Assembly: GCF_000504245.1 (NCBI RefSeq)
Contig: NZ_KI632509.1
Span: 5,111,502-5,175,501, forward strand
Reading direction: 5' to 3'
Source: Haloechinothrix halophila YIM 93223
Lineage (GTDB): Bacteria > Actinomycetota > Actinomycetes > Mycobacteriales > Pseudonocardiaceae
DNA length: 64,000 nt
The notes below the pieces were generated by a model. The model saw only the letters and a program-made list of their open reading frames with translations. It did no database searches and had not been told where the DNA came from. Shown in pieces: positions 1 through 50,495 of this stretch (position 1 is its first letter; every line of letters begins with the position of its first letter). The position numbers and the translations under genes were made by a program.

Positions 1-352
1 AATACGAAAAGTGGTGTATACCACTAACGCGATCGAATCATTGAATTTTCAACTGCGGAAAATCATGAAAAACAGAGGACATTTCACCACCGAGGACGCC
101 GCGATGAAGCTGCTTTATCTCGGCATCCGACACGTCACCGGACGCTACATCGACGGTGACGGTCATGTTCGCGCCAAGGGCGAACGCGGCACCGGCACTT
201 ACGGGTGGAAAGCCGCGCTCAACCACTTCGCCGTCCTCTTCGGCGACCGGCTCGTCCTCTAACGCGCCGTCACACACAGTGACGGATTCGACCACTCATC
301 AAAAGCAACGAAAAGGATAAACAGGCCCAAACATCCACAAAAATCTTGACAC
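1..352 (+). mobile_element. IS256-family element, right-hand end
   Basis: After the transposase stop at 262 there are about 90 non-coding bases. These run to a TTGACACGC-like sequence (347-354), directly before the point where homology to an IS630 transposase begins in mid-gene (356). IS256-type elements of actinomycetes often end in a terminal repeat containing TTGACAC. I therefore infer that the right terminal repeat ends near 352-357 and that the element sits in, or has removed, the 5' half of the IS630 gene. The left end is outside the window, so neither the terminal repeat nor a target duplication can be confirmed. Confidence 0.5.
2..262 (+). CDS. IS256-family transposase, C-terminal part (cut by window start)
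   Basis: The frame is open to the left window edge, so the N-terminal and catalytic parts lie outside. The visible residues contain the conserved IS256/mutator C-terminal block: TTNAIESLN, then Q-L-R-K, RGHF, a KLLYL segment and a tail ending FAVLFGDRLVL. In intact members this block carries the last catalytic glutamate (the E of NAIE). I see only the end of the gene, so I cannot tell whether the element is complete. It stops about 90 bases before an IS630-type remnant, so this is a nested or adjacent insertion zone. Confidence 0.85.
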   Translation: MRKVVYTTNAIESLNFQLRKIMKNRGHFTTEDAAMKLLYLGIRHVTGRYIDGDGHVRAKGERGTGTYGWKAALNHFAVLFGDRLVL

Positions 353-6051: not shown

Positions 6052-6247
6052 CTCACCGGTGGCTGACCGCGCACCTGATCTCATCGGCGACCATCGCCAT
6101 CGTTGTGCGGGCGCGCTGCGGATCCTCGGTACGCGGCGAGGCGTGTACCCAGCCGTCTAGTCGCATGCTTCTTATTCGAACCAAGAGACGTCATGGCTCG
6201 GCTGAGAGTCGGGTGGCCCGGGGGAATCTCACCCCCGGGCTCCCTCA

Positions 6248-6281
6248 GAACGGAGCGTGACAGTCTCCCGTCACTCCGCTC
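6248..6281 (-). ncRNA. Group II intron domain V
   Basis: The 34-base minus-strand sequence begins GAGCGGAGTGACGGGAGACT and ends CACGCTCCGTTC. It folds as a hairpin with a GAGA-type tetraloop and a two-base bulge, the standard catalytic domain V, just after the maturase stop. A domain VI-like GC hairpin follows (about 6215-6243). Confidence 0.85.
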
Positions 6282-6284
6282 TTC

Positions 6285-7547: not shown

Positions 7548-8085
7548 CCGTCTCCTCCCGCGAGGACAGCTGTCCCCGGGTTGCTCGTGCGACCAAATCC
7601 ACGATGAGCCGGCCCCTTCGCTCCACCCCCATTACAGGGCTTCACCACTACTACGAGCCGGTCCGCCAGCGAGCGCCGCCTCGGTACTCAACGCCTCCGG
7701 TTTCCGCCGTCGGCGCGCTCCCTCTCGCACACCCGCACCGCCGGGTGTGGACGTGCAGTATCGACACTCGCCTTCCCACGTTCCGCGCAGGAGCCGCAGA
7801 CCAGACTCACGCCGCCTTCATGCCGGACACCACCTGGCCAATAAGTGGGCACCCACCAGGCTCATCCCGGGAACTCAACTTCTCCCCGGTTTCGATGCCA
7901 CCTAATAGTTTCGACACCTCAACAGCGGTTCGCTCGCGCTCGTCTTCCTGATCCCCACCTGACACCTCTCGGGTGCCTTTTCCTCATCGCTCACCACGAC
8001 GGTCTTCAGCCAACGCAGCATGAGGCGGTTTGACGCCTGCCCCCACAGGCCGACGCCGAAGGGCCACAACCTTCATCTCCCACAC

Positions 8086-45310: not shown

Positions 45311-45459
45311 CACGCTGACTAGCGCCGGACGGCGTCCGGCATGCGCCACCACTCGACGCGATGGACGTCGAGTGCCTCGTACCGCCGGTGCTCGAGAGGT
45401 TGCGCCCGCAGCGCGTCCCGACTCATGCTGAACATCGAGTCGATCAACGGAGGGACGCG

Positions 45460-46200
45460 GTGGACGCGGACGGCGCGATAACCCCGGAACGCTACAACTA
45501 CCCCCATTTCGACGACTACATCGCGGCAGGCGGCGAACTGGCCGACGAGGCCAGGTTCCGCGAGTCCTTCCGCATCGGCGAGCGAGCACCCGACTTCACG
45601 CTGCACCGGCTCAACACCGGCGAGCAGATCAGCCTCTCGGCGCTATGGACGTCGAAACCACTGGTGATGGAGTTCGGTTCGTTCACTTGACCGTACTGCT
45701 CAGCGGAGGGTCCTCTGCTTGACGACGCGGCCGATCGGCATCCCGAGGCCGAGTGGGTGTTCCTCTACACCAACGAAGCGCATCCCGGTGAGCACGTACC
45801 GCATCACGACACGTGGGAGCGCAAACTCGCCAATGCGCGCCTGCTGCGCGACGAGGTCGGCATCGGCCGCCCGATCCTGGTCGACGACCTGACCGGCACG
45901 GTGCACAGGGCGTTCGGCGGGATGCCGAACATGACCTGGGTGGTCGACAGGGGCGGGCTCGTCGTCTACAAAGCGAACTGGACCAGCGCCGCCAACATCG
46001 AGGGCTTCCTCGAGCGTTACCGGACGGGCCGCAAGTCCGGCTCGGCGCGGGTCGCGATGTCCAGGTACGAGACCGAGCAGATCGAGTTCCGGCGCAGCGA
46101 CCCCGTCCAGTTCCAGCGGGCGTTGGAGCGCAACGGGCCCAGCGCCGTGACCGAGTTCGACAACGCCCACGCGATCTGGGCTCGACGCGACGAGAGCTGA
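45460..46200 (+). CDS. Deiodinase-like selenoprotein (thioredoxin fold) with in-frame UGA
   Basis: Read through the TGA at 45688-45690, this is one 246-residue protein. The two parts are in the same frame with no shift. FRIGERAPDFTLHRLNTGEQISLS is followed by PLVMEFGSFT-U-PYC, with Sec at residue 77 and Cys at 80, a U-x-x-C redox pair. Then come WVFLYTNEAHPGEHV, ARLLRDEVGIGRPILVDD and MTWVVDRGGLVVYKANWT. These align in order with type I iodothyronine deiodinases (NFGSCTUPSF, YIEEAHASDGW), where Sec is the catalytic residue. The GTG start at 45460 has a GGAGGG site. A SECIS-like hairpin follows the TGA. It probably catalyses a thiol/selenol redox reaction in the cytoplasm. The alternative, a nonsense pseudogene, fits less well because the rest is intact. 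Confidence 0.85.
45688..45730 (+). promoter_or_regulatory. Bacterial SECIS-like element after UGA
   Basis: A seven-pair hairpin, AGCGGAG (45702-45708) with CTCTGCT (45713-45719), closes a GGTC loop (45709-45712), with one G-U pair. The loop starts 18 bases after the TGA. The E. coli fdhF SECIS also has a GGUC loop 18 bases after UGA. CCG (45691-45693) can pair with CGG (45728-45730) as a lower stem. This is where SelB would bind. Confidence 0.8.
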
Positions 46201-46307: not shown

Positions 46308-47042
46308 ATGAAACTGCCCAAGGCCGCGAGCGCGATGAACCGGTCGATGAAGCTGCTCGGCGCCGGTTCCGTCGAGGACCTGGCGATCCGCCAGGCGGCC
46401 TGGGTCGCGCGCTGCGTCGGCCGTGGGCACGCGGCGCCGTTGACGCAACAGGATCTCACCGCGCTCGCGGCCGGTTTGCACACCGAGACGTTCGAGCCGG
46501 GGGCGGTGATCTTCCAGGCGGGCAGCGCGCCACCAGGGGTATGGATCGTGCGCAACGGCAGGGTGGAACTCTCCGTCGGCTCCGGCCGCAAACGCTCGGT
46601 GGTGCAACTACTCGGCCCCGGCGACGTCGACGGCGACATCCAGCATCTGCTTGACATGCCACTCCCCTACACCGCACGGGCGGTCGATGAGGCCACGGTG
46701 CTGTTCCTCAGCGCCCAGGACTTCGAGGGGCTGCTCGCGTCCCGGCTGACGATCGCGCGGCGCTGGTTGTCCAGCGTCGCCGAGCGATTGGCGGCAAGCC
46801 ACGAGCGCATCATCGGCATGCTTGGCCGTTCGCTGACCGCGCAGGTCGCGCAGTTGCTACTGGAGGAGTCCGTGCACGGCTCGATCCCGTTGCCGCAGCG
46901 CACCCTGGCCGCCATGCTCGGCGTAGCGCGGCCGTCGCTGAACAAGATCCTCAAGGACTTCGAACGGCGCGGCCTCATCCAGTTGCACTACGGCGGCATC
47001 GACGTCACCGATGAAGCGGGCATTCGGACACTGGCCGAGTAG
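46308..47042 (+). CDS. Crp/Fnr-family transcriptional regulator
   Basis: A 244-residue regulator. The N-terminal extension of ~45 residues is followed by the cyclic-nucleotide-binding fold (FEPGAVIFQAGSAPPGVWIVRNGRVELSV, LLGPGDVDGDIQHLLDMPLPYTARAVDEATVLFL). The C-terminal Crp helix-turn-helix is PLPQRTLAAMLGVARPSLNKILKDFERRGLIQL. The classic cAMP Arg/Ser pair is not conserved. It lies 107 bases after the selenoprotein gene on the same strand and before a second Crp gene, so a redox or electron-state signal is possible. Confidence 0.88.
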   Translation: MKLPKAASAMNRSMKLLGAGSVEDLAIRQAAWVARCVGRGHAAPLTQQDLTALAAGLHTETFEPGAVIFQAGSAPPGVWIVRNGRVELSVGSGRKRSVVQLLGPGDVDGDIQHLLDMPLPYTARAVDEATVLFLSAQDFEGLLASRLTIARRWLSSVAERLAASHERIIGMLGRSLTAQVAQLLLEESVHGSIPLPQRTLAAMLGVARPSLNKILKDFERRGLIQLHYGGIDVTDEAGIRTLAE

Positions 47043-47087
47043 ATCACGTTGGACACCGTCACGGAATTGGCACAAGATACCTAATTG

Positions 47088-47789
47088 ATGTCTCATGAAG
47101 AATTGGCCGATGACGAGCATTACTGCATCTCGGAAGTGGATCTTTTCCGGGACCTTTCTCGCCGCGAAATCGCCGCCATCGGTGCTCGCGCGCCATTGCG
47201 CTCCGTCTCATCGGGGCAGGTGATCTACAACCCGGGGCAGCCGGTGACGGTTCTGTTCATCGTCAAACGCGGCAGGGTGCGGTTGTATCGGACGACGTCC
47301 GATGGCCGCAGCGTCACCAACGCGATTCTGGAACCAGGCGCGGTGTTCGGTGAAATGGAACCGCTCGGCCTGCGCATGCGCACCAACTGGGCCGACGCGC
47401 TCGAGGCGACCGAGCTGTGCTTGATGAGCCGCAACGACGTCAAGGACCTGCTGTTCACCGACCCACGTATCGCGCAGCGGATCGCGGAATCGCTGTCGGC
47501 CCGCATCGACGAGCTTGAGCGACGATTGACCGACCTGACCTGCAAGACGCTCGGCGAGCGGCTGTCAGGCACGTTGTGCTCGCTGGCGAGCAAACGTCCT
47601 GCCGAGCCGATCCGGTTGACACATCAGCAGCTCGCCGCGCTGGTGGGCGCGAGCAGGGAGCGCACCACGACGGCGCTGAGCGAACTGGTTCGACACGAGC
47701 TGATCGTGGTACGGCGCGGCAAGATCACCATCAAAGACCTGGACGGCCTGCGCCGCTACGCCGACGGCGTCCGCTCCGCGCTCTCGTAG
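47088..47789 (+). CDS. Crp/Fnr-family transcriptional regulator
   Basis: A 233-residue Crp-type regulator. The N-terminus (MSHEELADDEHYCISEVDLFRDLS) has a Cys at 13. The sensor domain is SGQVIYNPGQPVTVLFIVKRGRVRLYRT...ILEPGAVFGEMEPLG. The helix-turn-helix is RLTHQQLAALVGASRERTTTALSELVRHELI. It is unlike its neighbour in detail, so not a recent duplicate. I start at the ATG 47088; a TTG three bases earlier is possible. The tail overlaps the convergent CPxC membrane gene by 34 bases. Confidence 0.88.
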   Translation: MSHEELADDEHYCISEVDLFRDLSRREIAAIGARAPLRSVSSGQVIYNPGQPVTVLFIVKRGRVRLYRTTSDGRSVTNAILEPGAVFGEMEPLGLRMRTNWADALEATELCLMSRNDVKDLLFTDPRIAQRIAESLSARIDELERRLTDLTCKTLGERLSGTLCSLASKRPAEPIRLTHQQLAALVGASRERTTTALSELVRHELIVVRRGKITIKDLDGLRRYADGVRSALS

Positions 47790-49055: not shown

Positions 49056-50495
49056 ATGGCCAACCCTTACCTCGAAGGCAACTTCGCCCCGATCAGCACC
49101 GAACACACCGCGACCGACCTGCCGGTGACCGGCACCATTCCGGAGCATCTCGACGGCAGGTACCTGCGCAACGGGCCGAACCCGATCGGCGAGATCGACC
49201 CGCGCACCTACAACTGGTTCCTCGGCGACGGCATGGTGCACGGCATCCGCATCCGCGACGGCAAGGCGGAGTGGTACCGCAACCGATGGGTCCGCAACGG
49301 CCCCGTCGCGGACGCCCTCGGCGAACCGCGCCATGGCAGGACATCCACCGGCATGGACCTGGCGACCAACACCAGCGTCATCGGCCACGCGGGACGGACG
49401 TTCGCGCTGGTCGAGGGTGGCGGGCCGGTGTTCGAACTGGCCGACGAGCTGGACAGCGTCGGCCCGTGCGACTTCGACGGCACGCTGCCCGGCGCCTACA
49501 CCGCGCACCCGCAGCGCGATCCGGTCACCGGTGAACTGCACGCGGTGTCGTACTACTTCGGCTGGGGCAACCGGGTGCAGTACACCGTGCTCGACCGCGA
49601 CGCACGGGTGCGGCGCGCGGTCGACATCGAGGTCAACGGCAGCCCGATGATGCACAACTTCTCGCTGACCGAGAACCACGTGCTGATCTACGACCTGCCG
49701 GTCACGTTCGACACCGGCATCGCAGCGGCCGCGTCGGTGCCCCGGTTCCTGCGCGGTGCGGCGCGGCTGACGATGTCCGCGCTCATCGGCAACGTCCGCA
49801 TCCCCGACCCGATGGCGGCGAAGGCGTCCCAGCGGTTCAAGCCGAACGCTCCACTGCCGTACAGCTGGAACCCGCGCTACCCCGCGCGCATTGGCGTACT
49901 TCCCCGCGACGGCCAGTCCCGCGACGTCCGGTGGTTCGACATCGATCCGTGCTACGTCTTCCACCCGGTCAACGCCTACGACGATGGCGACACCATCGTC
50001 GTCGAGGTACCGCGCTACGACCGCGTCTTCGACCGCGACCTGCGGGGACCGGGCGACGCGCCGCCGCTGCTTGAGCGGTGGGAGATCGACCTGACGGCTG
50101 GCAAAGTGCGCACCGAGCGCATCGACGACGTCATGCAGGAGTTTCCGCGCATCGACGAACGACTGCTCGGCCGCAAACACCGCTACGCCTACACCACCGC
50201 GGCGCGGGAGGAGAGCTGGTTCGACAGCGTGGTCAAGCACGACGTCGAGCGTGCGGCGTCCACACTGCACACCTTCGGGGAAGGCACCGAGGTCGGCGAG
50301 TTCGTGTTCGTCCCATCCAGTGAGGACGCCACCGAGGACGAGGGCGTGCTGATGGGATTCGTGTATGACAAGGCGTCCGACCACAGCGACCTCACGATGC
50401 TCGACGCGGCGACACTGGAGACCGTGGCGAGCATCCACCTGCCGACGCGAGTGCCAGCCGGGTTCCACGGCAACTGGGTTCCCGCGGCCGGATAG
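49056..50495 (+). CDS. Carotenoid cleavage oxygenase
   Basis: A 479-residue RPE65/CCD-family non-heme iron enzyme. The N-terminus has LDGRYLRNGPNPIGEIDP and FLGDGMVHGIRIRDG (first His ligand region). AHPQRDPVTGELHAVSYYF has the second, MMHNFSLTENHVLIYDLP the third, and the C-terminal GFHGNWVPA the fourth. It cuts carotenoid or stilbenoid double bonds with oxygen. The ATG at 49056 has a GGAGG site within the third operator. TetR-controlled expression fits catabolic or signalling use of apocarotenoids. No carotenoid synthesis genes are in the window. Confidence 0.93.
   Translation: MANPYLEGNFAPISTEHTATDLPVTGTIPEHLDGRYLRNGPNPIGEIDPRTYNWFLGDGMVHGIRIRDGKAEWYRNRWVRNGPVADALGEPRHGRTSTGMDLATNTSVIGHAGRTFALVEGGGPVFELADELDSVGPCDFDGTLPGAYTAHPQRDPVTGELHAVSYYFGWGNRVQYTVLDRDARVRRAVDIEVNGSPMMHNFSLTENHVLIYDLPVTFDTGIAAAASVPRFLRGAARLTMSALIGNVRIPDPMAAKASQRFKPNAPLPYSWNPRYPARIGVLPRDGQSRDVRWFDIDPCYVFHPVNAYDDGDTIVVEVPRYDRVFDRDLRGPGDAPPLLERWEIDLTAGKVRTERIDDVMQEFPRIDERLLGRKHRYAYTTAAREESWFDSVVKHDVERAASTLHTFGEGTEVGEFVFVPSSEDATEDEGVLMGFVYDKASDHSDLTMLDAATLETVASIHLPTRVPAGFHGNWVPAAG

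Follow-up and report, generated by a model that had tools for sequence, protein, structure and literature searches.

A deiodinase-like gene of Haloechinothrix halophila YIM 93223 with an in-frame UGA codon that is very probably read as selenocysteine

The window, a stretch of 64,000 nucleotides from the genome of Haloechinothrix halophila YIM 93223, contains on its plus strand a single frame of 246 codons (45460-46200) whose translation is broken only once, by a TGA at codon 77 (45688-45690) in the context VMEFGSFT-U-P-Y-C (Table 1). The preliminary description of this locus had pointed to the TGA within an otherwise intact 246-residue frame, to the motifs GSFT-U-P-Y-C and YTNEAHPG around and downstream of it, and to the tendency of ordinary gene calling to split such a gene; all of this was borne out, and the ordinary ORF list does cut the gene in two, at 45361-45690 (109 aa) and 45757-46200 (147 aa). 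The window protein matches the T4_deiodinase domain (PF00837) with 35.5 bits against a Pfam gathering score of 27. In addition, its residues 38-172 match positions 177-324 of the NCBIfam model NF038285, 'deiodinase family protein' (E 2.2e-21), a partial match that at 76.7 bits lies below the curated cut-off of 250, and the window protein has no counterpart to the N-terminal half of the model. Direct reading of residues 1-40, which are polar and without a long hydrophobic stretch, revealed no N-terminal membrane anchor.

Table 1. Features of the deiodinase-like locus, in window coordinates
Feature	Position	Strand	Basis or remark
Shine-Dalgarno-like GGAGGG	45449..45454	+	5 bases upstream of the GTG start; read directly
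Predicted deiodinase-like selenoprotein gene	45460..46200	+	246 residues including Sec77; terminal TGA 46198-46200
Thioredoxin/deiodinase-fold domain, residues ~31-196	45550..46047	+	AlphaFold2 model (pLDDT 94) and PDB matches
TGA codon 77, predicted Sec, first residue of U-P-Y-C	45688..45690	+	TGA in 79/79 readable best relatives; Cys/TGA/TAG in more distant ones
Cys80 codon (TGC), presumed resolving cysteine	45697..45699	+	Cys in 81/81 rows of the UxxC clade
Predicted bacterial SECIS hairpin	stem 45702-45708 / 45713-45719, apical loop GGUC 45709-45712	+	conservation; register as in host fdhA
YTNEAHPG codons, residues 103-110, deiodinase-family EAHP motif	45766..45789	+	aligned with EAHP of Dio3
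Crp/FNR-family regulator	46308..47042	+	homologue, 57-60% identical, close to the deiodinase-like genes of L074 and L018
Second Crp/FNR-family regulator, neighbour	47085..47789	+	putative link to the selenoprotein only

The locus would hold a pseudogene or encode a truncated protein if translation truly stopped at the TGA, or if the TGA were a sequencing error in a gene that once encoded Cys here; a standard ORF finder does end the frame at this codon. The relatives argue strongly against such a reading. Peptide patterns, run against one genome of each species, found 184 relatives, the best 80 of which were kept; since the patterns lay downstream of the Sec site and the query carried C at the site itself, TGA was not favoured by the search. 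Among these best 80 of 184, the site codon is TGA in all 79 readable loci, which span many phyla, and a Cys follows three residues later in every one of them (78 with U-P-Y-C and one with U-S-Y-C). The protein is conserved on both sides of the TGA, and the synonymous codons of the SECIS loop are invariant. We therefore regard a pseudogene or truncated product as very improbable; pseudogene, read error and UGA as Trp were all rejected as candidates, the first two being refuted in practice by conservation. The retention of Sec in every readable locus of the best 80 also suggests that its replacement by Cys is not easy. More distant relatives carry TGA, TGC, TGT or TAG at the site, so that the homologues, to which the preliminary description had looked for a check, run through the codon with UGA, UAG or Cys there.

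In a tree of 99 rows, the sequences with the UxxC pair form one group of 81 rows (SH-aLRT 98), all 81 of which have both UGA and the +3 Cys; no Cys form at the Sec site was seen in this clade, and the +3 Cys needs only a single change on the tree. The clade carries nine phylum labels, mostly of metagenome bins, and is widespread in Chloroflexota and Actinomycetota, which goes beyond the animals and few marine bacteria named in the preliminary description. Within the host family the gene is sparse, with any relative present in 5 of 390 genomes, including Haloechinothrix aidingensis and Pseudonocardia nigra, and it is absent from three draft genomes of the host genus. Invariant positions of the alignment include G73, S74, T76, residue 77, P78, A107-G110, K122, D142, G146, H149 and W174. 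Zero matches were obtained in phage collections and in IMG/VR, and plasmid collections gave one distant match, in Mycolicibacterium vanbaalenii, annotated as 'deiodinase-like protein'. In one Pseudonocardia genome (G627) a close copy (L024) combines the TGA at the Sec site with a TAA in frame at codon 196; the same genome has a second copy cut off by the end of a contig (L027) and two UGA paralogues that are more distant (L028, L029).

The host genome is closed, as a single contig of 5.55 Mb, and the search for the selenocysteine machinery that had been proposed as a check recovered every component: selA (429.6 bits against a cut-off of 267.9), selB (288.4 against 242.25), selD (366.5 against 125) and two tRNASec genes of about 80 bits each, both with the anticodon TCA (UCA). 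The two tRNASec genes, at C1:1034947-1035037 and C1:2955760-2955850 (L005 and L004), differ at 12 of 95 positions, and two distinct tRNASec genes are uncommon in a bacterium (PMC5330540). One of them adjoins selA and an fdhA gene with an in-frame TGA, the other adjoins selB. With its TGA read through, the host formate dehydrogenase reaches 1934.7 bits against NF041513. Because the sel machinery stands together with this fdhA, the host genome very probably decodes UGA as Sec in at least one other protein, through an established pathway. The formate dehydrogenase alpha gene with an in-frame TGA at L012:6439-9540 on the minus strand has a GGUC-loop SECIS and adjoins selA and tRNASec.

Downstream of the TGA the window can form a hairpin which, numbered from the U of UGA (+1), has a stem at +15..21 / +26..32 and a GGUC loop at +22..25, the same register at which GGUC occurs in the host fdhA. 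The loop is kept at +22..25 in 20 of 20 actinobacterial-type rows, all 20 of which also use GGT for Gly84 and CCT for Pro85, compared with 38 of 368 GG-type codons (10%) and 7 of 221 CC-type codons (3%) in or near the same genes; these counts come from related rows and are not readable as a probability, but the invariance of the loop codons points to selection on the RNA. The actinobacterial-type stem is mostly invariant, and covariation in these rows is consequently weak: in one row (L073) a T replaces C in the 5' arm and a matching A replaces G in the 3' arm, and the observed pairing was reached by 55 of 1000 shuffles. In Chloroflexota-type rows the stem lies one base earlier, the loop is G[GT]C and the stem is 84% paired, a value that 0 of 1000 shuffles reached. 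Given that the window hairpin, folded as a single sequence, shows no greater stability than shuffled sequences (z about -1 to 0), and that a simple hairpin-with-G criterion is also satisfied by some Cys forms, the case for a SECIS element rests on its conservation.

In the wider family, the codon at the Sec site follows the tRNASec of each genome. UGA occurs together with tRNASec in nine genomes (G000, which is the host, G557, G627, G816, G877, G934, G1024, G1025 and G1067), and without it in three draft genomes (G658, G1052 and G1074) whose completeness is only 72-80%. Three genomes with Cys at the site (G348, G388 and G598) have no tRNASec above the cut-off. Four others (G316, G949, G1016 and G1042) have the Cys form although tRNASec is present, as would be expected if other proteins of these genomes contain Sec. 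Two genomes, G099 and G158, have TAG at the Sec site of their deiodinase-like genes and a tRNASec-like gene above the Rfam cut-off with the anticodon CTA (CUA), which ARAGORN calls tRNA-Pyl. In the first of these genes (L018:1495-2298, on G099:C79) a GGUC-containing hairpin follows the TAG, and for the second (L022, on G158:C40) the 5' half was not found on the locus; both are probably UAG-encoded selenoproteins. The two genomes probably belong to the Geodermatophilaceae, a family in which tRNASec that reads UAG has been described (PMC5330540). The occurrence of UGA, UAG and Cys at one and the same site, matching the tRNASec of each genome, makes the family a clear case of Sec recoding in nature.

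The same pattern speaks against UGA standing for tryptophan or any other standard amino acid, a possibility for which no supporting point was found: homologues have Cys at the position, or TAG where the genome's tRNASec has the anticodon CUA, and the host has the full Sec system, so that we give this reading almost no credence. Taken on sequence evidence, the UGA at 45688-45690 would almost certainly be read as selenocysteine. The proposal of the preliminary description that this UGA encodes Sec in a deiodinase-like protein is hence supported by the sel genes, by the TGA/Cys/TAG pattern of the homologues and by the conservation of the SECIS. That the Sec would be incorporated into a deiodinase-like redox protein we hold to be highly probable, an assessment which excludes the question of the substrate.

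The fold points in the same direction. An AlphaFold2 model built from 39 relatives (mean pLDDT 94, pTM 0.91) found its best PDB match by VIA-align in Dio2 (Z 17.9, rmsd 2.0 over 157 residues), followed by Dio3 (Z 17.3), with ResA, DsbE and peroxiredoxins trailing at Z 13-15. Foldseek likewise gave Dio3 and Dio2 as the best solved matches, and in a profile search by sequence Dio3 (E 2.8e-17) and Dio2 came first. The window protein thus shares with animal Dio2 and Dio3 (9H48, 4TR3) the fold, the GSxT-U-P active site and the EAHP motif. It differs from them in having an extra Cys at +3, and in being without a membrane anchor in its sequence, without a thyroid hormone context and without an insert after EAHP, where the profile alignment, in which the GSxT-C/U-P site and EAHP align, shows Dio3 to be nine residues longer (SDGW...).

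These likenesses could be taken to mean that the protein is a true bacterial dehalogenase, in which Sec77 would strip an aromatic compound of iodine or a different halogen by reduction, in the manner of animal deiodinases; the nearest solved folds are indeed Dio2 and Dio3, and the GSxT-U-P site, the EAHP motif and the following histidine region align with Dio3. However, the nine-residue Dio3 insert after EAHP is missing, the Dio active site has no UxxC pair (SCTCPPF in the alignment), thyroid hormone is not expected in bacteria (PMC1088965) and a shared fold is no proof of function, and we therefore consider this function improbable. Iodothyronine in particular is an unlikely substrate because the protein lacks the insert that is specific to Dio enzymes after EAHP, and a peroxide or a disulfide is more likely. 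The protein might alternatively be a Sec-dependent peroxiredoxin-like peroxidase that is a 'deiodinase' by fold only, since AhpC-TSA (PF00578) scores 37.8 bits against a cut-off of 26, slightly above T4_deiodinase, and many peroxiredoxin structures match at Z 13-14. This is a plausible, if not the favoured, alternative whose chemistry overlaps with that of our best explanation; against it, the peroxiredoxin PxxxT/SxxC (PxxxTxxC) motif is by inspection absent from the active site (EFGSFTUPYC), and the Z scores of the Dio structures are higher by 3-4 units.

Our preferred reading is a soluble, Sec-containing enzyme of deiodinase-like thioredoxin fold that would act as a Sec/Cys thiol-dependent reductase or peroxidase. 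Given the UGA, the conserved SECIS and the presence of SelA, SelB, SelD and tRNASec(UCA), SelB should deliver Sec-tRNASec at codon 77 in place of termination. We propose that the selenolate of Sec77 would serve as the nucleophile and reduce an oxidised or halogenated small substrate, that Cys80 would then act as the resolving residue to give a Sec-Cys selenenylsulfide intermediate, and that a thiol system such as thioredoxin might re-reduce the enzyme. Such a redox cycle of the UxxC pair (Sec77/Cys80) is likely, and for the substrate class we lean slightly towards peroxides or disulfides. A bolder proposal, which we regard as a long shot, is that the UxxC clade represents a widespread, Sec-obligate bacterial enzyme of deiodinase fold with a reductive reaction new to bacteria, for example selenium-dependent dehalogenation, and belongs to the bacterial stock that gave rise to the animal deiodinases.

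The novelty of the gene had been overstated, as bacterial deiodinase-like Sec proteins with a bacterial SECIS were first predicted in 2005 in the Sargasso Sea set (PMC1088965), and UxxC deiodinase-like selenoproteins are listed in reviews (PMC9312934, PMC13188914). A count in the GOS set likewise included deiodinase-like selenoproteins (PMC2398784), and in a 2016 survey they were not among the top 20 selenoprotein families (PMC5029168). The window gene resembles this bacterial family (PF00837, UxxC) in its T4_deiodinase domain, its in-frame UGA with a predicted bacterial SECIS and its U-x-x-C; the family has been reported from marine metagenomes, whereas the window gene lies in a closed Pseudonocardiaceae genome. 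Our literature search found no description of a deiodinase-like selenoprotein in Actinomycetota or Chloroflexota, and no characterised bacterial deiodinase-like enzyme. The gene thus appears to be a well-supported further member of a predicted family, in a lineage for which no description was found, and it opens a deiodinase-like selenoprotein to study in a closed genome that has the complete Sec system, earlier predictions having come mainly from marine metagenomes. Compared with the UAG selenoproteins of Geodermatophilaceae, the window gene uses UGA, and its distant relative in L018 is alike in having TAG at the same Sec site together with tRNASec(CUA). Those reported are formate dehydrogenase, UGSC and AhpC, with no deiodinase-like protein among the examples (PMC5330540); given that family names overlap, AhpC-TSA also matching the proteins discussed here, we do not claim a UAG-encoded deiodinase-like selenoprotein as new.

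A comparison of neighbours across loci found no conserved operon, that is, no neighbour common to most loci, and the apparent large neighbour clusters were rejected as shadow or split ORFs of the deiodinase-like gene itself. The deiodinase-like genes of Pseudonocardia nigra (L074) and of the UAG genome of L018 have a homologue of the first Crp/FNR-family regulator nearby. In Haloechinothrix aidingensis (L061) the deiodinase-like gene adjoins selB, selA and tRNASec, and in a Nitriliruptoraceae bin (L071) selB and selA occur within the same 10.7 kb. In the absence of a conserved neighbour, the genomic context takes the function no further than the Crp/FNR and sel linkage. Elsewhere in the window, a carotenoid oxygenase of the RPE65 family (PF03055, E 9e-113) is encoded at 49056-50495 on the plus strand, near two Crp/FNR-family regulators and a TetR regulator, and group II intron signatures (RF00029, RF01999) are present on the minus strand at 6208-6283 and 7957-8074.
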